IMG/VR virus record: IMGVR_UViG_3300032797_000092
Coordinates: 1-23,836 of that record
Source: a virus
Reading direction: 5' to 3' (one strand)
DNA length: 23,836 nucleotides
Of the stretch, positions 3,539 through 18,376 are shown piece by piece. Both the position numbers and the translations under genes were made by a program. The notes under the pieces are model-generated. The model saw only the letters and a list, made by a program, of their open reading frames with translations. It did not search any database and was not told where the DNA came from. Numbering within the stretch: position 1 is the first letter of the stretch; each line of letters starts with the position of its first letter.

Positions 3539-5477
3539 AACATACTCCAGTTTCAAGTCTACGGTCATCCAAAGAAGGAAGGACATCTACGACAATCATT
3601 CTGTCCGTAATGTGTATCACCCAGTATGGCACACGGCCATGGCCTTCTTTGAGGGTGAACAGTGGAAAATTTGGAGTAAACTCGATAAAAAATTGAGGGA
3701 TTTCGAGCCATCTTCCCTGACCAGGCGCATGGTGATAAATAAGGTCGAGTCCATTGTCACCACCTTTGTCGCCCATTACATGAAGGAAATGCCAACCTTT
3801 AATGTCAATCCCAACAGCAATACCCCAGATGACCTCAATTCGGCAGACCTATCTCAGAATGTTTTGCAGGTAGAGTATTCCCTGAAACTGGAAGAAATAC
3901 TCGGGGAATATTTCTACTGGAAATATATTATTGGAACTGGCATTAGGGGGCTTTTCTGGAACCCCAAGGCTTCTGGCGAAATCAAGATGCCTGATTATGA
4001 TGCGAATGGACAGGAAGAGGGTTCCCATATTGTCACTGTTCCCGATATAGGACAACTTTACGAGAAGGTTATTAACCCCTTTAATTTTTATCCAGTAGGT
4101 GGAAATACCGTGGATAATTGCACCGAGATCCTCTACGTAGAAGCATTGTCCCTGGAGACCATCAAGGAACAGTTTGAGGTAGATGCCGTAGAGGAAAGCG
4201 TGGATACCCAGTTGACCTCTACTGGATATAAGCGTGATTACCAGGAGGGACACAGGGAGCGCTTTGAGAAACGAGCCAGGGTATTTTACTATTGGAAAAA
4301 GCCTTGCGGTGGTTTCCCCAAGGGTGCCTATGCCGTCATAATCAACGATAAAGTTGTTAAGTATAGGGACAATCCCTATGTTCAATATGGGTTCAATTAC
4401 CCATTCTTCAAGTCTTGCGCTATTCCCGTTCCTGGGCAGTTCTGGGGAAAGAGTCCGGTTGAGCAGATTCGGCGTGTCCAAATTGCCTATAATTATGTTT
4501 ATTCCATCCTGATTCAGACCATGGAAAGGATGGGAAAGCTGAAGTGGTGGCTCGATAGGCGGTCCAATGTGGAGTCCAATGCTATCAACAGTAATCTCGG
4601 GGAATTTGTTTATTACACAGGTGGTCTAAATATTCCAACACCGCAGCAAGCCAACCTCAACCCTGTCCCCTATTACTACTTTCAAATACTGGAATGGTTA
4701 GACAAGGCCTTTGAAGATATTACTGGCTTTCACGAAGTCAAGTCGGCCAGGCTACCCACTGGGGCTAATAATCCCAGTGGTGTGATGGTAAATCTGCTTC
4801 TTGAGCAAGATGAAACTCGTTTGGCCCCAGCCATTAAACAATACCTGACTTCTTTAAAACAAGAAGCCAAGTTATACCTCAAGATGGTTCAGGATCTTTA
4901 CACGGAAGACAGGATTCTCAAGATTTGTGGAGCTGACAAGGAAGCGGAAATCATCGACTTTCATGGGTCCACCATCAGGGACAATAATGATGTCCAAATA
5001 GAACTTGCCCCCCTACTTTCTGAAAGCAGGGCAGCCTGGGAACAGACAGTGTTTAAGGCCCTGGAAATGGGGATTATGGACGGAAGGACGGCCATTCAGA
5101 AATTAAAACTGGAGCATCCCAAGGCCATCCTGGATGAAATTTCTGATGAGCGCCTGGCCCTGCGTGAGAACACGGAGATGCGTCAGGGAAAACAAAGGCA
5201 GCCCCAGGACTGGGAAAATGAGGATGTTCATCTGCATATCCATGAAAACTTCCTGAGGACTGCTACCTATGAAAAATTGCCCGATGACATTAAGCAGATT
5301 TTCCAAAACCATCGGGATGCTACCAGGCAGATTCAGGCCCAGAAGTTCCAGCAACGTCTTGTAGCGCAACAGCAGGCCATGCAAGCCGCTCAGCCTCAAA
5401 TGGGGGCCCAAGGCGGTCAGCAGCCTGGTCAGGGTGGACCCCAGCCTGGTCAAGGGGCACCACAGGGTATGGCATAA
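3531..5477 (+). CDS. Portal protein (head-tail connector ring)
   Basis: It forms the dodecameric ring at one capsid vertex through which DNA is packaged and ejected. The 648-residue length suits portals of short-tailed phages. The N-terminus carries the familiar FFEGEQWKIW segment (about 38-47). The middle has a VINPFNFYPVG segment and the crown/stem-like helix YNYVYSILIQTMERMGKLKW. A late segment ANNPSGVMVNLLLEQDETRL resembles the conserved portal region with SG and acidic residues. From about residue 575 it becomes helical and Gln-rich and ends in Gly-Pro-Gln repeats, like the barrel or flexible tail of P22-type portals. The stop overlaps the next ATG as TAATG. The exact portal subfamily is uncertain. 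Confidence 0.88.
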   Translation: MSETYSSFKSTVIQRRKDIYDNHSVRNVYHPVWHTAMAFFEGEQWKIWSKLDKKLRDFEPSSLTRRMVINKVESIVTTFVAHYMKEMPTFNVNPNSNTPDDLNSADLSQNVLQVEYSLKLEEILGEYFYWKYIIGTGIRGLFWNPKASGEIKMPDYDANGQEEGSHIVTVPDIGQLYEKVINPFNFYPVGGNTVDNCTEILYVEALSLETIKEQFEVDAVEESVDTQLTSTGYKRDYQEGHRERFEKRARVFYYWKKPCGGFPKGAYAVIINDKVVKYRDNPYVQYGFNYPFFKSCAIPVPGQFWGKSPVEQIRRVQIAYNYVYSILIQTMERMGKLKWWLDRRSNVESNAINSNLGEFVYYTGGLNIPTPQQANLNPVPYYYFQILEWLDKAFEDITGFHEVKSARLPTGANNPSGVMVNLLLEQDETRLAPAIKQYLTSLKQEAKLYLKMVQDLYTEDRILKICGADKEAEIIDFHGSTIRDNNDVQIELAPLLSESRAAWEQTVFKALEMGIMDGRTAIQKLKLEHPKAILDEISDERLALRENTEMRQGKQRQPQDWENEDVHLHIHENFLRTATYEKLPDDIKQIFQNHRDATRQIQAQKFQQRLVAQQQAMQAAQPQMGAQGGQQPGQGGPQPGQGAPQGMA

Positions 5478-5818
5478 TGTTTAACGATAAAGAATATCAC
5501 CGGAAAAGTCACCTAGAAAGAAAGGATATCATTATTGCTCATTATGGTGGAAAGTGCCAATGCTGTGGAGAAACCCAGAAAGAATTTTTGAGTGTTGACC
5601 ATATTAACGGTGGCGGAAGGGAACATAAAAAGACATTAGGTTTAACGGGCGATGGTTTTTATCGTTGGATTATAAAAAATAATTTTCCTGATGACCTTCG
5701 GATTCTTTGTTATAACTGCAATTTGTCCATGGGTCATCTCGGTTATTGCCCGCATGAATTAAATACATTGTTTTTTAATCGGGACAACTCGGAAGAGTCA
5801 AGTTCCGAAATTCAATAA
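5477..5818 (+). CDS. HNH endonuclease, free-standing, inserted between portal and scaffold
   Basis: This 113-residue protein shows an HNH nuclease core. The zinc pair C27-x2-C30 is followed by the catalytic strand with D41-H42 (FLSVDHINGGG). A helix with YRWIIKNNFPDDLRILC comes next, then the second zinc pair C78-x2-C81 and an N82 in CYNCN, ending in GHLGYCPH. It probably nicks or cuts DNA in the cytoplasm. Free-standing nucleases of this type often behave as homing endonucleases that spread between related phages. The gene is visibly AT-richer than its neighbours and sits tightly between portal (TAATG overlap) and scaffold (14-base gap), typical of an inserted element. A recombination or packaging role is possible instead. 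Confidence 0.85.
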   Translation: MFNDKEYHRKSHLERKDIIIAHYGGKCQCCGETQKEFLSVDHINGGGREHKKTLGLTGDGFYRWIIKNNFPDDLRILCYNCNLSMGHLGYCPHELNTLFFNRDNSEESSSEIQ

Positions 5819-6691: not shown

Positions 6692-7918
6692 ATGGGAACA
6701 AATTATGCGTCAATCGACAAGGCCCTAAAGCTCGACTATCTCCCAGAACTGCAAAAGAACATCGAAAAAAAGGTAAAGACATGGGACTTGCTTTCCAAAT
6801 CTCAAGAAGGCATCAAGGGACGCGACCTCTATATCAAGATGTTCAAGTCCTTCCCGCAAGGTGTTGGCCCCGCGATTGCAGAAGCAACGCTGCCGACTCC
6901 TGGAAATGCGGGCTATGCTGAATCCAAAATTTCTGTAAAAAGAAATTATGCCGTGGTTCAGTTCGATGCCATGCTGGAAAAAGAGAGCAACGCCATCGTT
7001 GATATCGTTGATTTCGAGATGCAGGCTGCGGAAGAGTCGCTCCAAAAGGAGCTTAACTATCAATTAGCCTATGGTAATGGGGATGGGTCCAGGAGCAAGG
7101 TCATTACGGCCATTGGCTCGGGAACCACGACTGTTGCCGTGGGTTGCAGTGTCGAAACCGAGGGAACTCGCGGAGGCACTGATTTTCTGTATCCTGGAAT
7201 GTATATCTATATCGCTGGGTGCACCCCCACCGACAATACCATCGTGTCTATCGACAGTTCTTCGCAGATTACCGTTGGCACTACAATCACGAACTGCCCC
7301 GATAACGCACTGATTTATAGGCTTGGTGCCTATAGCGCCAGTGTGCAGGTTGGCATGATGGGCATTCCTGGCATCGTGAAGGATTCCGTGGCCCTTCAGG
7401 GTCTCGACCCCGCTACGGAAACCTGGTGGAAGTCCTATAAAAAGGACATGAGTAACAAGTGGTCCACCAGTGATGGTCTCTTCCTGGATGCCATTCAGGA
7501 AACCATCGACGCAATTCAGTGGAACAGCAATGGCAGAATCGACCTCATCTATGCGTGGCCCCTGTTCCAACGCCAGTATCGCTATGCGATGGAAGCAAAG
7601 CGGCGCATCGTCAACACCCTGGACTTCAAAGAAGGGCGGTCTGGTTTAGCCTATGTCACGGAAGACGGAGAAATCTCAATCCAGTCAGACACCTATCTGC
7701 CCTGGTTCAACGTCTATTTCCTTGACTCCAGCAAACTTTCTATCCGCACCCTTGAGGGAATCACCTGGGAAGAGAAAGACGGTGCCGTTCTGCGGTTCCT
7801 GGAAAGGAAAGACGTTTTCACCGCGTGGCTCAAGCTCTATTCCGAACTCATCACGACCATGAGAAATGCTCATGGATATTGGATTAACACTGGCACAACC
7901 GTTGGAGACTATAGCTGA
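6692..7918 (+). CDS. Major capsid protein
   Basis: This is the shell-forming protein. The 408-residue length is normal for an HK97-fold coat. The N-terminal helical arm (to about 50) leads to KSFPQGVGPAIAE and a PTPGNAGYAESKISVKRNY segment like the E-loop region. It continues with the long spine-helix region DFEMQAAEESLQKELNYQLA (about 108-127) and then GNGDG. Residues about 137-212 look like a small inserted beta domain (AIGSGTTTVAVG, YIYIAG, SQITVGTTI), as many coats carry. The C-terminal part ends in a beta-rich FLERKDVFTAWLKLYSELIT segment. It lies after the scaffold gene, has GGGAG before ATG, and is followed by a strong terminator. Fold assignment is by pattern and context. Confidence 0.87.
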   Translation: MGTNYASIDKALKLDYLPELQKNIEKKVKTWDLLSKSQEGIKGRDLYIKMFKSFPQGVGPAIAEATLPTPGNAGYAESKISVKRNYAVVQFDAMLEKESNAIVDIVDFEMQAAEESLQKELNYQLAYGNGDGSRSKVITAIGSGTTTVAVGCSVETEGTRGGTDFLYPGMYIYIAGCTPTDNTIVSIDSSSQITVGTTITNCPDNALIYRLGAYSASVQVGMMGIPGIVKDSVALQGLDPATETWWKSYKKDMSNKWSTSDGLFLDAIQETIDAIQWNSNGRIDLIYAWPLFQRQYRYAMEAKRRIVNTLDFKEGRSGLAYVTEDGEISIQSDTYLPWFNVYFLDSSKLSIRTLEGITWEEKDGAVLRFLERKDVFTAWLKLYSELITTMRNAHGYWINTGTTVGDYS

Positions 7919-7955: not shown

Positions 7956-7988
7956 GATGGGGGCCGCAAGGCCCCCGTCATTTTTTTT
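7956..7988 (+). terminator. Intrinsic terminator behind the capsid gene
   Basis: A 10-bp stem GATGGGGGCC/GGCCCCCGTC (one G-U pair) with a GCAA tetraloop is followed by one A and eight T residues. This is a textbook rho-independent terminator, 38 bases after the capsid stop. The next gene's GGAGG starts only three bases after the T run, so downstream genes must depend on read-through or on a promoter inside or upstream of the capsid gene. Confidence 0.95.
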
Positions 7989-8000
7989 CTGGAGGATATG

Positions 8001-8456
8001 ATGAAGAAATTATCCATCTTTGTAATCCTGGCCTTTGCTTGCTTGCAGCTTTGGGCGATGTATACGCAGCCATTTTTGAGTGCTGACATTGCCGTTAATG
8101 CTGGAGTTCTGAAGGTCAATGGAACAGACTTTACCTCTGCCGAAATAGATGTTGACCGATTTTCGGGCAATGGAACCGCTTCGCTTTATATGCAGTTTAC
8201 CAGGGCTGCTGGGTCCGCCTCAACGATAGATGCTAATTTTGAAGTTAGCTCTAATGGCGGAGCAACCTGGGCGACATTAGAGGGCGGGACACTTTCCGTG
8301 GCTACCAATCATTCTGTTATTAGCGGAACTACCGTAAGGGTATACAAACAATACAATCTCAATGGAGTTGGTAAGATTCGTTTGCAGAGCGTTAAGAACA
8401 ACGACGCATCCAATAACATTACCGCCTTCAATATTACACTCGGTATAAAGTCCTAA
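8001..8456 (+). CDS. Small exported beta-rich protein with signal peptide
   Basis: The 151-residue protein starts MKKLSIFVILAFACLQLWA, a classical signal peptide: two Lys, a hydrophobic core, then an A-x-A-like LWA site before MYTQPF. An ATG three bases earlier lies too close to the GGAGG (7991-7995), so 8001 is chosen. The mature part is Ser/Thr/Asn/Gly-rich with alternating strands. Segments such as SLYMQFTRAAG, ANFEVSSNGGATWATLEG and KIRLQSVKNNDASNN suggest a beta-sandwich like small phage surface or decoration domains. No catalytic motif is seen. It lies between the capsid terminator and another signal-peptide gene, so both may act outside the cytoplasm. A virion protein that happens to be exported is the alternative. 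Confidence 0.75.
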   Translation: MKKLSIFVILAFACLQLWAMYTQPFLSADIAVNAGVLKVNGTDFTSAEIDVDRFSGNGTASLYMQFTRAAGSASTIDANFEVSSNGGATWATLEGGTLSVATNHSVISGTTVRVYKQYNLNGVGKIRLQSVKNNDASNNITAFNITLGIKS

Positions 8457-8471
8457 AATCCGCAACGGATT
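8457..8471 (+). repeat. Short hairpin between the two exported-protein genes
   Basis: AATCCG and CGGATT form a perfect 6-bp stem around the loop CAA, directly after the stop codon at 8456. No T run follows, so it is not an intrinsic terminator. The next ribosome binding site (GAGGAG) comes six bases later. It could protect the upstream mRNA end or tune the second gene, but this is inference. Confidence 0.4.
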
Positions 8472-8485
8472 ATCGAGGAGCCTCC

Positions 8486-10930
8486 ATGAGATTGTTTTCA
8501 AAAGTCTTCCTTATCATTGCCTGCCTGCTTCTTTTTACCAACATTGGTCTGGCTACTGATTACTATGTTGATTCCGCCGTTACGGATACCAATTATCAAA
8601 GTGCCACCCCGGATTTTACGACCTACGACCACCTTACTTTTGCGACCACCGGAGGAACCGACTCTGTTTTCGCAACCGTAGCTGATGTCAATGCCGTAGC
8701 CTTGGCGGCCGGGGATAATGTCTATTTTCGCAGGGGACAGATATGGCGTGAGGCTTTACTGATAACCCATTCTGGATCAGCCGGAAGTCCGATCACCTAT
8801 ACGGCATTTGGAGCGGGAGAACTTCCAAAGATTTATTCCGTTTTCAAGGTCAACGGCGCCGATTGGCGCGATTACGACGTCTGGAAGGACATAGATACTT
8901 GGTATAGCGGAAACGGTAGTTTTGAAATCGGTACCGAACCCACAAACCGGTGGTCTATGGGTACGGCACTTTCTGGTGGTTCAACGTGTGCTCAAGATAC
9001 GGGAGAACATTATCACGGAAATAAGTCTCTGAAATTATACAAGGCAAATGGGGGATCTGTCGTTGACCCGGGAATGGGCGCTTCTTTCAAGCCCTGGGGA
9101 GCTAAATATAAGCTCAGATTCTACGGAAAGACAGATGCCTCCGCCAACATAGATTTGCGTTTCCAGATTACCGACAACGGGACAAACTACTATCTGCAAT
9201 CTGACGGTGTTACCTGGTCGACGTCACCGGCCTACTGGTTTCCAGCCGTCATTCCGGCGAATACCGCAAACTGGACGGAGTACACGCGCACATACACCCT
9301 TCCGACTTCGGGAACCTCTATGACCCTGAATCGTGTGTCTGTCAGAGTAGCCGACGCTGGTCCAGCTACCGCTTATATTGACTATTTTAGGATGGAAGAA
9401 CTGTGGCAGACGGAAGTCGCCAACAAGTATAAGATTTATTTGTATAATGGGACCGTCGGAAACCACACAATTATCATCGACGGCATAAGGGCGACCTGGA
9501 AAACCTCCATCGCCAATTTAACCACAGATAAGGATTATTATTACGACGCGACTACCGGATACTATTACGTTTATAACGCTGTCTCGCCAGAACTTGATAG
9601 TCGAAACTTTGAGTTTCCCATGACTATTCCAAGTAGCAGATCCATTAATTCAGTTTACTCATCCGGTCAAAGTTATTTCGTCCTCGACAGCCTTGCGCTA
9701 AGGGGGGGCGATAATTATACGGCTTCCTACTATGGAAATCTACATTTTGAGAACTGCGACCACTTCAGCGTAACGAACTGCCAAATATCAGGAGGCGACG
9801 GTTGTGGCATCTGTTGGGCATCCAGCGCATCACATAATAGCATCGACGGCAACTTCATAAATAACAACATCAGCCAGCATGGGGGAAGCGGCGGCGGAAT
9901 TATGATCGGAAGAAATAGTGATGTCCAGACAACCACGGGATTTCTGATTAGCGGAAATAATATCCATCATATCGGCATGAACTATATAGACCTCACCAAG
10001 GACGGTCACGCCATTGGCCTGTTCGGAAGTAGCGGGGCCGGAGGAACCCCTTGGTCAGTTGGAAACGGCGTCATAGAAAATACCGAGATTTCTTATTCCG
10101 GTCAATATGCGGTCGGAGCAGAGATCGGCCTTTACAATGCTTATAGTGTGGTAATAAAGGCCAATAACATTCATCATTGCCAAGAGTCGGGTCCCAAGAT
10201 GGGGACGGGCTGCAAGGATATGAGCGTTTACAATAACGTCATTTGGAAGAATGTCGCCACCGACGATACAAGTTATGCGAGGGGAGGCATAGTCGTCGAT
10301 TGGTCAACAGGTGGCCCGAGCTCCGTAACGAGCAATCAAAATATCAATATCTTCAATAACACGATTTGTTGGAATGATGATACTTCTGCGACGCACACCT
10401 ACGGGCACAGGGCCGGTATCCTTCTCAGGGCCTCGGGGGGCGGAAGTTTAATTAACATCGTCGCAAAAAATAACCTGGTCCTCGACAATTACAATTCTAC
10501 GGGAACCTATGGGCATCAATTATACACCCTGGGAACCCTGACCAGTTGTGTCCTTAATTATAATTGCTATTATGCGACCGACAATGTGGCTAACTTCATT
10601 TATTATGTCGATACCCTCTATTCACTCGCTCAGTTTGCTACTTATCAGTCGGGAAAGAGCCAGGACGCAAACTCCAAGGCCGTCGCCCCTGAACTCCTCA
10701 ACGCCTCGGGAACCCTGAATTACACGACCGACTATCAATTAAAATCGACTTCTCCCTGCCTTGAAAAGGGCGTTGCCCTCACTATCGTATATGAAGACTA
10801 TTGGAAAACCCCTCGACCACAGGGCCTTATGGATATAGGTGCATATGAAATGCCCACCAACGATGCCCTCAAGCTCGGGGTTGTGCTAAATCCAACCATG
10901 AATGTTCCAAGGATAGTAATCAAGAAATGA
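8486..10930 (+). CDS. Secreted right-handed beta-helix protein (putative polysaccharide-acting)
   Basis: The 814-residue protein has a signal peptide (MRLFSKVFLIIACLLLFTNI, cleavage likely near LA-TDYYVD). It then has the module YYVDS...GDNVYFRRGQIWREAL and SAGSPITYTAFGAGELPKI, familiar from bacterial secreted beta-helix proteins. Residues about 125-310 look like a carbohydrate-binding beta-sandwich (NKSLKLYK, KYKLRFYGKTDAS). From about 330 to 740 come beta-helix coils with repeated ISGNNIHHI, VIKANNIHHC and MSVYNNVIWKN units. The end has STSPCLEKGV and PRPQGLMDIGAYE, the signature I associate with choice-of-anchor Q proteins. It likely binds or cleaves polysaccharide outside the cell. CpG is much denser than in tail genes. 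No catalytic site can be assigned. The GGAG binding site is six bases before the ATG. Confidence 0.82.
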   Translation: MRLFSKVFLIIACLLLFTNIGLATDYYVDSAVTDTNYQSATPDFTTYDHLTFATTGGTDSVFATVADVNAVALAAGDNVYFRRGQIWREALLITHSGSAGSPITYTAFGAGELPKIYSVFKVNGADWRDYDVWKDIDTWYSGNGSFEIGTEPTNRWSMGTALSGGSTCAQDTGEHYHGNKSLKLYKANGGSVVDPGMGASFKPWGAKYKLRFYGKTDASANIDLRFQITDNGTNYYLQSDGVTWSTSPAYWFPAVIPANTANWTEYTRTYTLPTSGTSMTLNRVSVRVADAGPATAYIDYFRMEELWQTEVANKYKIYLYNGTVGNHTIIIDGIRATWKTSIANLTTDKDYYYDATTGYYYVYNAVSPELDSRNFEFPMTIPSSRSINSVYSSGQSYFVLDSLALRGGDNYTASYYGNLHFENCDHFSVTNCQISGGDGCGICWASSASHNSIDGNFINNNISQHGGSGGGIMIGRNSDVQTTTGFLISGNNIHHIGMNYIDLTKDGHAIGLFGSSGAGGTPWSVGNGVIENTEISYSGQYAVGAEIGLYNAYSVVIKANNIHHCQESGPKMGTGCKDMSVYNNVIWKNVATDDTSYARGGIVVDWSTGGPSSVTSNQNINIFNNTICWNDDTSATHTYGHRAGILLRASGGGSLINIVAKNNLVLDNYNSTGTYGHQLYTLGTLTSCVLNYNCYYATDNVANFIYYVDTLYSLAQFATYQSGKSQDANSKAVAPELLNASGTLNYTTDYQLKSTSPCLEKGVALTIVYEDYWKTPRPQGLMDIGAYEMPTNDALKLGVVLNPTMNVPRIVIKK

Positions 10931-11118
10931 TACAAACACGCCTCAAGGTATCCATCGGGGTTATTATCCTCATTTTCGTAGAGGCTGTCCTTAAACATTT
11001 TTTACCTGGCCTTCCCTTTGCCGAAGCCATTGGGGCCCAGGTAGTGGTCGCTGGTTGGTATGTTGATAAGGAGAATAAACGCAATATTGCCGCCATGCAA
11101 AACGGGGGAACAAAATGA
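10927..11118 (+). CDS. Small membrane protein, holin-like candidate
   Basis: The 63-residue protein has a hydrophobic segment VSIGVIILIFVEAVLKHFL (about 8-26). A shorter one, EAIGAQVVVAGWYV (about 33-46), follows, then a charged tail DKENKRN. This two-segment layout with a polar C-terminus resembles small holins or holin-like phage proteins. It starts at ATGA overlapping the stop of the beta-helix gene and ends in ATGA overlapping the next gene, so it is translationally coupled on both sides. Role as holin or as a membrane helper for the exported cargo is inferred from topology and from the next gene, which resembles XhlA-type proteins. No direct motif proves it. Confidence 0.6.
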   Translation: MIQTRLKVSIGVIILIFVEAVLKHFLPGLPFAEAIGAQVVVAGWYVDKENKRNIAAMQNGGTK

Positions 11119-11408
11119 CCAAGAAGGGGCTCATTGGGCCAAGGGGGCCAAGGGGAAGAGGTGGGGATATTGGACCGAAGGGAGAGAAGGGAGACACTGG
11201 ATTAACGTGCAAGGAGATTACGGTTCCGTGTGACCACAGGTTTACCCTCCTGGAAGAGGGACTCAAGGCTATCAAGGATAACGAACTTAAACATATCAAT
11301 AATGATCTGAAACTAATTAAAAGGATTTTGTATTTTATTTTAACCAGCGTTGTCGCTGGGTTTATTGGCCTGCTCTTCTTTATCATCAAGGGACATATTA
11401 TTTTTTGA
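11115..11408 (+). CDS. Collagen-like membrane protein (Gly-X-Y stretch, coil, C-terminal anchor)
   Basis: The 97-residue protein has three parts. Residues 5-30 are uninterrupted Gly-X-Y triplets (Gly at 5, 8, 11, 14, 17, 20, 23, 26, 29), including PKG-EKG-DTG, typical of stable collagen-like triple helices. Residues about 38-70 form a charged coil (HRFTLLEEGLKAIKDNEL, HINNDLKLIKR). Residues about 71-93 are one membrane span (ILYFILTSVVAGFIGLLFFI). The coil-plus-span half resembles XhlA-type holin-associated proteins; the collagen part is an unusual addition. It probably forms a membrane-anchored trimer. Topology, and so the side on which the collagen stalk stands, cannot be read from the sequence. 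ATGA overlap couples it to the previous gene. Confidence 0.7.
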   Translation: MTKKGLIGPRGPRGRGGDIGPKGEKGDTGLTCKEITVPCDHRFTLLEEGLKAIKDNELKHINNDLKLIKRILYFILTSVVAGFIGLLFFIIKGHIIF

Positions 11409-12214: not shown

Positions 12215-14065
12215 ATGAAAAGAAAGAGAGACCTTACTACCAGTCCCAGGTATGACTTCTCTGGTGGCCTGGTCACAATGGTAGCCAAAACGCGGTTACA
12301 GCCTAACCAACTCGCCAAGGCAAAGAACATTAACATCTTGGTAGATGGTGAAGTGCAAGTTCGTGGTGGCTGTGCCAAGGTTTCTACCGTTGCCTTCGGA
12401 ACGGAAATTGACAGATTCGTTCATTTCAAAACAGATGCTTACGATAAAATCATTGCCTATGGCGGAACCTATGTCAAGCGTCTGGATACGGGGTCACCCG
12501 ATGTTTGGACCACCCTTGAGAATGCCATGCCCGATACGGAAGATTATCGTCCCATGGAAATGGCCCAGAATATGCTCTACATTGCCCGCAGTGATGCCGT
12601 CAATGCCGTGCGAAAATATTACCCAACCAAAACCGTATTGTGGTTAGCTGGCATAGCGCCATCGGCTACCAAGGTTACGGCCACAGAGGGAACTTCGGGC
12701 AACCTGACGGGTGCCTATCGGTGGTATTATACATATTATAATTCTACCACCCTTGAGGAAAGTGACCCCAACCCAATCTCTGATGAATTGACCGTATCGG
12801 CCAAGCGGGTAACTTTAAGTGCCTTCGTGGCCAGCGCTGACCCTCAAGTGGATAAAATTCGTATTTATCGTAATTCCAGTGGAGTAACAGATTATTACTA
12901 TGTTGGAGAAAAGACCAACACCACTGCTTCCTTTGAAGATAATGTTGCCGATGATAACCTGGGTGCGTTAATTAGTTTCCTGAATGCAGCCCCACCCAAG
13001 TCCAATGTCTTGCTATGGCATCTCAATAGAATGTTTTATGTTGATGCTGATAATCCCAGCGACCTCTATTGGTCTCAACCATTCCTACCTGGGTCCGTCC
13101 CGCTTGTCAATAAGGTTTCCGTAGAACGTGGGGACGGGGGAAGAATTGTTCGACTTATTTCCTGCTATGACAATATTGTGGTCCTGAAAAACACAGGAAT
13201 ATATCTCCTTAATTTCAATGCCGCATCCCCCATAGATAGCTTTTACCAACCCGTTGCCACGAAATATGGCTGCGTAGCCCCCATGTCAGTGCAGAATGTC
13301 CGAGAGGTTATTGTTTTCCTATCTCCCGAGGGATTGAAAAAAATAACAAATGGTGGAACCACCATTGAGGACTTGGCCATCCCAGTGCAATCTGACTATG
13401 GAACGAAGGACCTGAATGCTGTTGCCAATATCTTTAGGGAATGTAGTAAGGCTACCATCGGTAGGGCCGTATCCATTTATTATGAAGACAAGAACCAATA
13501 TCATATCTCGGTTCCCTATTATACCAGTGCCAACAATGACCTGACAATAGTTTGGAATCTTGATTCCAATACCTTTGCTGCCCATGAGGGATGGAATGTT
13601 AAGGCGTGTGCGCCCTATAGATACTATGATAGCGAGCAGCTCTATCGTAGTCACAATGACCAATATATTTATCAGCACGACACTGGCAGCCTGGATGTCA
13701 CCACGCCCATTTCCTACGACTGGCAGACAGGCTGGAATGATGTCAATGGACTTCCTGACCGCAAGAGAATACGTCTATTTTTCCCAGTAATTTTTGGGGC
13801 CGATGGGGTTCAAATTAACTATGAAATCTTAAAGGATTTCGAGTCTTCGGGGTCAGGATTTACGGGGTCTATTACTCACGTTGGGGCATCCTGGTTTGGA
13901 TATGCTCATTGGGGATATAGCCACTGGGGACAGGGCGGGGAAATTCTATATCGAAAAAAGGCCCTGGTAAAGGGTAAGGTATTTTCAGTTCGCTTCTTCG
14001 GGTCATCCAGTAGTCCAGTGGGTGTGGCGGGATATCAATTCTTCTATCAACCGAGGGCACTCTAA
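12215..14065 (+). CDS. Tail hub/nozzle protein, beta-propeller type
   Basis: The 616-residue protein starts with the motif FSGGLVTMV...AKAKNINILVDGEVQVRGG, which I know from tail-closing proteins of short-tailed phages such as P22 gp10-like or T7 gp12-like. Residues about 160-250 form an FN3-like insert (GAYRWYYTYYNSTTLEESDP, DKIRIYRNSSGVTDYYYVG). Repeated propeller-blade segments follow: LLWHLNRMFYVDADNPSDLY, IVVLKNTGIYLLNF, VIFLSPEGLKKI-like and LTIVWNLDSNTFAAHEGW. The C-terminus is aromatic (WFGYAHWGYSHWG). It probably forms the hexameric nozzle below the adaptor and carries the tailspikes. The stop overlaps the tailspike start as TAATG. Family assignment is by pattern; exact homologue unknown. 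Confidence 0.8.
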   Translation: MKRKRDLTTSPRYDFSGGLVTMVAKTRLQPNQLAKAKNINILVDGEVQVRGGCAKVSTVAFGTEIDRFVHFKTDAYDKIIAYGGTYVKRLDTGSPDVWTTLENAMPDTEDYRPMEMAQNMLYIARSDAVNAVRKYYPTKTVLWLAGIAPSATKVTATEGTSGNLTGAYRWYYTYYNSTTLEESDPNPISDELTVSAKRVTLSAFVASADPQVDKIRIYRNSSGVTDYYYVGEKTNTTASFEDNVADDNLGALISFLNAAPPKSNVLLWHLNRMFYVDADNPSDLYWSQPFLPGSVPLVNKVSVERGDGGRIVRLISCYDNIVVLKNTGIYLLNFNAASPIDSFYQPVATKYGCVAPMSVQNVREVIVFLSPEGLKKITNGGTTIEDLAIPVQSDYGTKDLNAVANIFRECSKATIGRAVSIYYEDKNQYHISVPYYTSANNDLTIVWNLDSNTFAAHEGWNVKACAPYRYYDSEQLYRSHNDQYIYQHDTGSLDVTTPISYDWQTGWNDVNGLPDRKRIRLFFPVIFGADGVQINYEILKDFESSGSGFTGSITHVGASWFGYAHWGYSHWGQGGEILYRKKALVKGKVFSVRFFGSSSSPVGVAGYQFFYQPRAL

Positions 14066-15645
14066 TGGGTAAAGTTCCGTATATCATCGGGGAAGCCCTG
14101 GTTGATACGAACTTCCGACAGTTTGAAAAAGCGCACGGTAAGTTACGCAAGGATTTTGATTCTCACCAACATAGTATCAAAAATCTTACAGACTTAGCCT
14201 GGAAAGATATTAGGGTCTTTGGGGCCAAGGCCAATGACGTTAATAAAGATAATACGGTAGCCATTAACGAGGCCTTAGATGGCGGTGGATATATCCTCAT
14301 TCCCGATGGAACCTGGTGGATTACGGGTTATCTTAATATCCCAGATAATACACTGATTTTCTTTACGGAAAATGCAGTTTTGAAATTGCATGACGGGGCG
14401 GGGGTAACCTCTGGCACATTGGCTATCCTGACAAATGCAAGTTGGGCAAATGGAGGTTCCAACATTACCATCATTGGGGCCAAGATAGACGGAAATCATG
14501 CTGGCAATCCAGGAAAGGGTGTCCATGGTATGATTTTCAAGGGGGTTAGTCATTTAACCATTCGGGATGCCTACGTCCATGATTGTGAGAATTGGTCAGG
14601 TGGAAATTTGGGTGACGGTATTTATATGTGTCGCTCTACCAATGGCAACCACATGGATTATGTTACCCTGTCTAATATCCGCCTCTCTGATAATATCAGA
14701 AATGGACTCGCTGTTATAGATGCCAGGTTTTCTTCATTTCACAATGTCAAGTGCTATAACAATCATAATTATTCCATAGATGTTGAGCCCAATGGGGTAG
14801 ATGACAGGCTTGTTCAGGTAAGTTTTAGCAATATCAATATAGTTCATTCTTCAGCCGATTACCCTACGGACCATCTTTATTATGGTATGGTTCTTATGAA
14901 TAAGAATAGGGGTCAAACGGGGGGAATTACAGTCGCCAACCTAACGGCTGAGGGGTGTGGCTATTCTGGATTATTAGTCCAGGATATTTCATATTGTCAA
15001 TTTTCCAACATAGAATGCCGCAATAATTCCCAACTGGCTGATAATGGTTATCCTGGAATTTGGTTGTATGCCAGCAATAATCCAAATTATCCCGACCCTG
15101 ACCCAGACCTTTATTACTGCTACAAAAATAGTTTTACCAATATTCGTTCTTCGGGGCCCAAGCAAAATTATGGTATCAGGGAACAGGTATCTGGCAATGG
15201 CCTGGCTGATTATAACCGCATTGCCATAGCCGAGCTTTCTGATAATCATGCAGAGTCCCTGTTCGTTGGTGCGCACAGTGGCATTGTGAATCCACCCATT
15301 TCCGCTGGTGGTTCATGTAATTTATTAGATGGTTCAACACACTTAGATACCTTGGCTGGAACTGTGGCCAGGGGCGATATTGTGGTCGGAAATTCTACCC
15401 CAAAATGGGCCAAAAAAGCCAAGGGAACTACGGGTAAGTTGGTTGGCTATGATGCCAATGATGTTGTAGATATAGACCCAGCCACATTGGATGTAGATAA
15501 GTTGGACGGGTCTCACGCCTCGGCCTTTCTTGGGGCCACGGCACAGGCGGTTGATTCGGACAAGATAGATGGAATCAATATAACGGTTGGGACAACGCCA
15601 CCAGGTTCACCTGGGGTTGGTGACCTGTGGGTAGACACAACCTAG
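14065..15645 (+). CDS. Tailspike with pectate-lyase-like beta-helix
   Basis: A receptor-binding, possibly polysaccharide-cleaving tail protein of 526 residues without signal peptide, so it is assembled on the virion. A short N-terminal head-binding part (1-45, VDTNFRQFEKAHGKL) is followed by WKDIRVFGAKANDVNKDNT and GGYILIPDGTWWI (about 46-87), the standard entry to pectate-lyase-type beta-helix folds. Coils run to about 430. The end is a fibre-like segment LAGTVARGDIVVGNSTPKWA with DKLDGSHASAFLG and SDKIDG repeats, often seen at phage fibre tips as a trimerisation or chaperone region. Catalytic residues cannot be named. It directly follows the tail hub gene. Confidence 0.85.
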   Translation: MGKVPYIIGEALVDTNFRQFEKAHGKLRKDFDSHQHSIKNLTDLAWKDIRVFGAKANDVNKDNTVAINEALDGGGYILIPDGTWWITGYLNIPDNTLIFFTENAVLKLHDGAGVTSGTLAILTNASWANGGSNITIIGAKIDGNHAGNPGKGVHGMIFKGVSHLTIRDAYVHDCENWSGGNLGDGIYMCRSTNGNHMDYVTLSNIRLSDNIRNGLAVIDARFSSFHNVKCYNNHNYSIDVEPNGVDDRLVQVSFSNINIVHSSADYPTDHLYYGMVLMNKNRGQTGGITVANLTAEGCGYSGLLVQDISYCQFSNIECRNNSQLADNGYPGIWLYASNNPNYPDPDPDLYYCYKNSFTNIRSSGPKQNYGIREQVSGNGLADYNRIAIAELSDNHAESLFVGAHSGIVNPPISAGGSCNLLDGSTHLDTLAGTVARGDIVVGNSTPKWAKKAKGTTGKLVGYDANDVVDIDPATLDVDKLDGSHASAFLGATAQAVDSDKIDGINITVGTTPPGSPGVGDLWVDTT

Positions 15646-17032: not shown

Positions 17033-17272
17033 ATGACGTTATTTCTCGGCTTACTGCTTGGATTTGCCAGGGAATTTTCGGTAGTGCGTTACCTCAAGGC
17101 AGTCCAAGCAAGGTCGGCTTTATTGGGGTCGGTTCTTACATTGGGGATTGGATGCTTAGACCTGGTAGTGATAGCCAGGTTAGCCCTAGAGGGTGATTTA
17201 AGAATGGCAATAGGATTTTTGATAGGAGAGACACTGGCATCTTACTTTGCCATTAAGGCTAAACATGAGTAA
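17033..17272 (+). CDS. Multi-spanning small membrane protein, holin candidate
   Basis: At 79 residues it has three hydrophobic segments: MTLFLGLLLGFA (1-12), ALLGSVLTLGIGCLDLVVIA (about 29-48) and MAIGFLIGETLASYFAI (about 58-74). The tail KAKHE is charged. Arg and Glu residues at the segment edges and the GETLASYFAIK ending recall a DUF5698-like phage membrane family. It directly precedes an M15-type peptidase and overlaps it by 8 bases, the classic holin-endolysin order, and three spans fit a class I holin. The frame is blocked upstream by a TGA, so 17033 is the only ATG. An alternative frame (16990-17196) across the same bases looks like a shadow. Confidence 0.72.
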   Translation: MTLFLGLLLGFAREFSVVRYLKAVQARSALLGSVLTLGIGCLDLVVIARLALEGDLRMAIGFLIGETLASYFAIKAKHE

Positions 17273-17711
17273 AGAATACATCTCGCGTCACCTACTCTTG
17301 GCGGAATATCAATGCCATCACTGCGGAAAATTGCCTCCATTCCTTGACCCAGAAATGCCATCTATCTTGCATGAGATTCTCTTCGATAGATATGACCGTG
17401 TTTGGGAAGCGTGGGTAGAACAGATGGGGAATGTGCTGACGGTATCATCGGGATATCGGTGTCCAATCTGGAATCAGCATGAAGGCGGCGAAGCACTTAG
17501 CCTGCATATCTTTGGGGTGGCCCTTGACTTGGATGTTTCTACTGCCGACGAGGTAAGGCAATTAGTTCAGGTGGCCGAAGCCATTGACCCTGACCTGCGC
17601 TTGGGATTTGAGCAATATCTTCGCCAGGGGAAAACCCTGGTTCATATGGACATAGGATACCTGGTTAATCCTAGGTTTAGCCTAGACCTACATGAGAGAG
17701 CCAGATGGTAA
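17265..17711 (+). CDS. M15-family peptidase, putative endolysin
   Basis: Probably a zinc D-Ala-D-Ala or L-Ala-D-Glu peptidase cutting peptidoglycan cross-links at lysis. With ATG 17265 the protein has 148 residues. The metal site is complete: S-x-H-x-x-G-x-A-x-D as SLHIFGVALD (H81, D88) and V-H-x-D as VHMD (H127, D129), with SSGYRCPIWN before it. The N-terminal YQCHHCG (C17, C20) is a feature common in small M15 phage proteins. There is no signal peptide, so it needs a holin, matching the membrane gene upstream. It overlaps neighbours on both sides (8 and 7 bases). A virion-borne hydrolase is possible but less likely. Confidence 0.9.
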   Translation: MSKEYISRHLLLAEYQCHHCGKLPPFLDPEMPSILHEILFDRYDRVWEAWVEQMGNVLTVSSGYRCPIWNQHEGGEALSLHIFGVALDLDVSTADEVRQLVQVAEAIDPDLRLGFEQYLRQGKTLVHMDIGYLVNPRFSLDLHERARW

Positions 17712-18376
17712 AGAGAACTATGGTTATGGCATTCCTAGTCATCCTGCTGGCATTAGGAACCACGGTGTCCCCCAGGTCATCGCTGGACACAACCATGAAG
17801 AATATTGTTCAAGTGATTTACACTTATTCCATAAAAACAGTCTATGGAACAGAATGCGAAGGAAACATGAAGGGTAGCGGTGTCTTATTGGGACACGATA
17901 AAATCTTAACTTGTTACCACCTCTTAGATGCGAATCCCCCAGGGGTTATCAAGATTACCTATTTTGGCGATGGGAAACCAGAGGTTCGCACAGGAGACCA
18001 GGTAGACATTCTTTTGTTTGATGAAAAAAAAGATTTGCTATATTTGCAGGTAAAACCAGCATTTGACAATGGTTTGACTTGGTTATCCGTTGAACTTCCC
18101 GAGGCGGGGGATGATATAGTTATCATGGGTTATCCTGGGATTCGTCTTAATCCTGTTCGTTTTTATAAATTCAGCATCAACCAATATGGCATTATGGTTT
18201 TTCCTGTCTATAACGGAGATTCTGGTGGTGGTGTTTTCAATATGAAGGGAGAACTCATTGGCATCTTGAAGGCAATTCTTTTCCTCAAGGAACCATATCA
18301 GCAGGTGACCTTCGTTGGATATGCTATACCACTGAATCTTATCAAGGAATTTCTTGGAACTGAAACGGTGAGGTGA
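17705..18376 (+). CDS. Exported trypsin-like serine protease
   Basis: The 223-residue protein starts with a signal peptide or anchor (VKRTMVMAFLVILLALGTTV). The chymotrypsin-fold triad is visible: His in ILTCYHLLD (H72), Asp in DEKKDLLYLQV (D110) and Ser in YNGDSGGGVFN (S173, with the oxyanion GDSGG). KGSGVLLG before the His and GELIGIL after the Ser match the trypsin-like core. No PDZ domain is present, so it is shorter than DegP. Its place right after the M15 peptidase (7-base overlap) suggests a role in the envelope during lysis, or cutting host or phage surface proteins. Capsid maturation is unlikely given the signal peptide and distance from the head genes. Such an exported protease is unusual for a phage lysis cassette. 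Confidence 0.87.
   Translation: MVKRTMVMAFLVILLALGTTVSPRSSLDTTMKNIVQVIYTYSIKTVYGTECEGNMKGSGVLLGHDKILTCYHLLDANPPGVIKITYFGDGKPEVRTGDQVDILLFDEKKDLLYLQVKPAFDNGLTWLSVELPEAGDDIVIMGYPGIRLNPVRFYKFSINQYGIMVFPVYNGDSGGGVFNMKGELIGILKAILFLKEPYQQVTFVGYAIPLNLIKEFLGTETVR

Follow-up and report, generated by a model that had tools for sequence, protein, structure and literature searches.

The window, a linear IMG/VR virus contig of 23,836 nucleotides from an SU10-like podovirus, encodes behind its capsid gene two putatively exported proteins, a small one (S) and a large one (L), and such a pair recurs in six phages with different head genes and with a large partner that changes its fold. We give an about even chance to the reading that S and L form a phage-specific, Sec-exported cassette of proteins that are not part of the virion, in which a constant S is combined with an exchangeable glycan-binding or adhesin-like L and which would act late in infection at the envelope or outside the cell. 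The pair represents a new family and a new arrangement within a known kind, the phage-encoded exported proteins. To our knowledge, few exported phage proteins have been characterised outside lysis and superinfection exclusion, and the recurrence of this pair in phages whose head genes differ suggests that they have a task in common late in infection, at the host surface or in its surroundings.

As an SU10-like podovirus, the window carries genes for terminase, portal and capsid, for an adaptor (PF24175) and a tail protein, and for a tailspike-like protein. The capsid gene (6692-7918) is followed on the + strand by an intrinsic terminator consisting of a hairpin and then a T tract (7956..7979; -25.8 kcal/mol, z -4.6), and comparable hairpins occupy the equivalent position in two other S-bearing phages, designated L004 and L019. 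Behind the terminator lie, also on the + strand, S (7998..8456), a protein of 152 aa with a signal peptide at approximately residues 1-20 and then a beta-sandwich, and L (8486..10930), a right-handed beta-helix protein of 814 aa with a signal peptide at approximately residues 1-23. The original prediction of a signal-peptide protein pair behind the capsid terminator is borne out, as both open reading frames are real and have Sec-type N-termini; the location given for the pair was correct except that S starts at 7998 and not at 8001. Plausible ribosome-binding sites precede S and L (CTGGAGGATATGATG and GAGGAGCCTCCATG, respectively), and with such a site at each start the hydrophobic N-termini look like translated starts rather than upstream extensions. 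Starts, homologues and family matches are concordant, and the possibility that S and L are chance open reading frames was rejected.

Both N-termini fit a Sec signal peptide, that of S reading MMKK and LSIFVILAFACLQLWA with the putative cleavage site before MYT, and that of L reading MRLFSK and VFLIIACLLLFTNIGLA with the putative cleavage site before TDYY. Signal peptides were judged by a strict home-made rule together with reading by eye for the n-, h- and c-regions, an approach cruder than SignalP. This rule is passed by 9 of the 12 S and L proteins from the six phages and by 2 of 133 other open reading frames of at least 90 aa on nine contigs (Fisher p = 2e-10, a value that overstates independence because the S and L members are partly homologous). 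Three pair proteins are missed: S of L019 was removed by an ORF-overlap filter, and the other two carry an acidic residue in the n-region, while the two positives outside the pair are a trypsin-like protease of the window (17705-18376) and the L019 membrane protein encoded immediately 3' of the pair. The S proteins of three phages (L015, L018 and L019) carry basic residues directly behind the hydrophobic stretch, a position where cleaved signal peptides less often have them. A conserved lipobox was not found in S or L; in the six-member alignment the signal-peptide-like N-terminus is the least conserved part of S and holds no conserved cysteine, and the window's L has IIAC at residues 10-13, within the hydrophobic stretch, where the N-terminus of L004's L has no cysteine. 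Signal-peptide-like N-termini thus recur on S and its neighbour in six phages despite changing sequence and partner fold, and the export of both proteins that had originally been proposed, here predicted to run through Sec, is well supported by these N-termini.

Profile searches place S in six phage contigs, which comprise two groups of SU10-like podoviruses and HK97-type phages. Besides the window these are L004 (IMGVR 3300032069_000052), a relative of the window's virus (MCP ~50%); L019 (3300031862_000026), a distant SU10-like phage with an SU10_MCP capsid and a portal at 24%; L018 (3300031999_000077) and L020 (3300033489_000157), both with an HK97-type capsid (Phage_capsid) and with neighbouring genes in common; and L015 (DQHV01000381.1), a contig in a Candidatus Aminicenantes MAG with Terminase_3 and a different portal. 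The last was found by a genome-wide pattern scan on short conserved stretches, which distant members may escape, and its presence in the MAG offers a lead, and only a lead, to the host. As profile searches did not find S in 395 other genomes of this phylum, S looks phage-specific, and its gene could serve as a marker by which further phages of this kind, and possibly their hosts, may be recognised. Neither S nor L of the window had a tblastn match among 50,697 phage records, and L searched alone in viral contigs and phage records gave no match.

In all six phages a signal-peptide-like start is present on S and on a second protein encoded directly 3', the body of which is a beta-helix in three, a ConA-like lectin in one and a set of fibre-like repeats in two. 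The beta-helix partners are those of the window (814 aa), of L004 (916 aa, plus three choice-of-anchor D domains) and of L018 (4666-10965; 2099 aa, with several beta-helix stretches). The partner in L019 is an SO2946-like/ConA-like lectin (PF22237, 3e-18), and those in L020, with YadA-like repeats, and in L015, a repeat protein cut by the contig end, were classed as fibre-like from the sequence by eye. The large proteins of L019 and L020 have a common N-terminal segment of 40 aa (57%) and unrelated bodies, and the window's L is 57.7% identical over residues 21-117 to one module of the L protein of L018, which, given the different heads of these two phages, points to exchange between phages. 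The L018 protein is itself composite, several beta-helix modules being combined in one chain with a TIG and a choice-of-anchor D domain.

Two close relatives of the window's virus (L002 and L003) keep the capsid, adaptor and tail genes and have between capsid and adaptor only small open reading frames without signal peptides, which makes the S and L genes an accessory cassette that is not needed for building this type of virion. The GC contents of S (0.447) and L (0.477) are close to those of the other genes in the window; together with the absence of S from the 395 other genomes, this makes recent import of a host gene unlikely. These observations bear on whether the pair is a moron, that is, host-type surface proteins acquired by chance and without a role in the phage cycle. 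L-like beta-helix proteins do occur in bacteria, as partial matches of 26-47% identity in genomes of the L015 phylum and on plasmids; the absence of S from genomes of that phylum, the recurrence of the pair in phages with different head genes and the GC content nevertheless make a moron very unlikely. A search with the portal profile among the genome contigs found no prophage.

The predicted structure of S (monomer, pLDDT 76.8) comprises an N-terminal helix at residues 4-22, corresponding to the signal peptide, and an antiparallel beta-sandwich, in agreement with the beta-rich character anticipated for the small protein. The top VIA-align matches of this model are YomS (Z 9.4 over 94 aa) and the C-domain of XepA (Z 9.1 over 96 aa), closely followed by phage neck, capsid-cement and other unrelated jelly rolls at Z 7-8. 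Foldseek matches in the PDB are generic jelly rolls and lectins, with YomS and XepA not among the top 50, and hhalign of the S profile with YomS gave a probability of 0.2% over 12 columns, a weak test as it involves a single YomS sequence. As there is no profile link and generic jelly rolls are nearly as close, S was not filed as YomS; its fold is a common jelly roll that is also found in capsid-cement proteins.

This fold is among the arguments for regarding S and L as decoration and fibre proteins of the virion, with an N-terminus that serves for membrane insertion or anchoring, or as an export signal for fibres that are loaded at or after lysis. In L020 and the podoviruses alike, the pair is flanked by head genes on one side and tail genes on the other, a usual place for virion genes that counts against an exported module; in both L018 and L020 it is 3' of head-completion genes, followed in L020 by a tail-terminator-like gene. 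The same slot in a distant SU10-like phage, from another genome of the L015 phylum, holds proteins that by reading have no signal peptide, and the large partners of L015 and L020 are fibre-like. Homology to known virion proteins, which the original prediction had counted as evidence against it, is only brushed: the L020 partner resembles tail-spike and virion-structural PHROG families weakly (best E 1.3e-8), and the window's S and L have no PHROG match. Virion proteins assemble in the cytoplasm, however, and signal-peptide-like starts on both partners in six of six phages are hardly a matter of chance; moreover, the pair is missing from L002 and L003, and a tailspike-like protein without a signal peptide is encoded separately in the window (14065-15645). 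On account of gene position, jelly-roll fold and fibre-like partners, the virion assignment keeps about a fifth of the probability. There is a slim chance that in some phages Sec-exported fibres or decoration proteins are held in the periplasm and loaded onto virions at or after lysis, and in that case a part of the particle would be built outside the cytoplasm.

The beta-helix nature of the large protein, also part of the original prediction, is confirmed by a match to Pfam PF13229 at approximately residues 420-608 (33.3 bits, cut-off 25.9). Its DIGAYE end had been taken for a signature of secreted bacterial proteins; this corresponds to the NCBIfam family choice_anch_Q (NF041518), which clears its cut-off in the L proteins of L004 (38.1 bits) and L018 (67.4 bits) and falls slightly short of it in the window (residues 746-789, 24.4 bits, cut-off 25). 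A CBM_4_9 match at residues 154-280 is weak and below the cut-off (20.6 bits, cut-off 25.9), and the AlphaFold2 prediction for L (pLDDT 38) was of no use. Right-handed beta-helices are common to many pectate-lyase-type enzymes and phage depolymerases, and the fold and the CBM_4_9 match would suit a secreted enzyme that degrades polysaccharide and so clears the host's surrounding matrix or capsule. Searches of L against Pfam and NCBIfam with E values as high as 1 returned no catalytic family, a negative result weakened by the strong divergence of beta-helix lyases, and phmmer of L against the PDB gave no match. The suggestion that L is an enzyme which changes polysaccharide is therefore unsupported: the folds found are of glycan-binding or adhesin-like types and, as the L019 partner is lectin-like and those of L015 and L020 are fibre-like, catalysis is not something that the cassettes have in common. 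We consider an enzymatic L improbable.

For the exported, non-virion cassette that we prefer, the following course may be envisaged. S, a small beta-sandwich, would be the constant partner and L, whether beta-helix, lectin or fibre-like, the exchangeable one, which most likely binds surface or matrix glycans. Both would cross the inner membrane during late infection, and since no anchor was recognised at the C-terminus of L in the window, this protein should stay in the periplasm or leave the cell. The pair would probably coat or loosen the envelope or matrix, and the outcome may be an easier escape of the progeny, or progeny that do not stick to the dying cell and debris. We counted as support for an exported module the predicted export of the window's trypsin-like protease, which is encoded beside the endolysin.

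An exported pair might instead mask or block the phage receptor on the surface of the infected cell and thereby exclude superinfecting phages. Ltp of TP-J34 is one of the known exported phage proteins that act in this way, and for C. acnes phages a signal-peptide protein resembling Ltp has been proposed (PMC11480721). Ltp-type proteins are small, exported and phage-encoded, as S is by prediction, and a large partner that is swapped would suit receptors that change. The classical exclusion proteins, however, are small lipoproteins, whereas S and L have no conserved lipobox and include a large exchangeable second protein, and a place among late structural genes is late for excluding a second phage; this role is accordingly rated unlikely.

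Among characterised proteins, XepA of prophage PBSX and YomS of prophage SPbeta are, like S, small late phage beta-sandwiches, and yomS adjoins a minor tail gene. XepA has been reported to be exported during PBSX development and to be absent from mature particles (PMC6834076), which makes it a useful analogy for an S that would be exported and not part of the virion. XepA is among the proteins discussed in a paper on secretion without signal peptides (PMC1266369), whereas S has a signal peptide; the XepA literature consulted describes no exported partner comparable to L. The bacterial choice-of-anchor Q/D beta-helix proteins (NF041518, NF012200, PF13229) likewise have a signal peptide, a beta-helix and a GAYE end, as in the window, L004 and L018; L differs in being phage-encoded behind a phage-specific partner gene, in having no recognised anchor after the domain and, in the window, in matching choice-of-anchor Q just under the curated cut-off. 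Signal-peptide endolysins of the phage fOg44 Lys44 type carry a Sec signal peptide and are exported during infection (PMC6116005), whereas S and L show no peptidoglycan hydrolase domain. Choice-of-anchor D domains are present in Erwinia phage cellulase (PMC9544554), and these cellulases (S6 gp095, phiEaP8) have that domain in common with L of L004; the phiEaP8 protein, however, has no signal peptide at its start, and S6 gp095 contains a GH5 domain, which the S and L cassette lacks. A literature search of partial coverage found no title or abstract describing the pair.

Two small genes on the + strand follow L, and their membership of the cassette is suggested by position only. The first (10927..11118) overlaps the end of L and encodes a hydrophobic 63-aa protein, possibly a small membrane partner or holin, which has a hydrophobic N-terminus without a cleavage site and no family match, including in the Pfam search. 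The second (11115..11408) encodes a 97-aa protein with a collagen-like repeat (Collagen 18.6 bits, below cut-off) and a C-terminal transmembrane segment at residue 67, an unusual combination within a single protein; it has a PHROG hemolysin match (E 0.009), and homology to the membrane protein of L019 was not supported.

The lysis genes lie elsewhere in the window. The S and L block was rejected as an endolysin cassette, as the endolysin and holin-like genes are located at 17033-17711; the endolysin itself is of the M15 type without a signal peptide (17247-17711), separate from S and L, and directly 3' of it is the trypsin-like protease (PF13365, GDSGG; 17705-18376), predicted to be exported by its signal peptide. 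This protease was not found in L002 or L003 by tblastn. Close to the holin-like genes of L004, in a comparable location, lies a gene for a GDSGG protein (L049, 5057-5866) that begins with a signal-peptide-like stretch and has only short weak matches with the window protease. Around the head and tail genes of the distant podovirus ctLwi270 (MW202554), three genes encode proteins with signal-peptide-like starts (L007, 1289-3829, 4403-5194 and 11958-12452), one of which is a LamG lectin; no S gene was recognised in ctLwi270, and a comparison of S with a signal-peptide protein of this phage did not support a link. Finally, an open reading frame of the window between the portal and scaffold-like genes (5477-5818) has a GC content of 36.5%, against ~47% elsewhere, and encodes a CxxC...H pattern resembling that of HNH endonucleases; it is perhaps a recent insertion.
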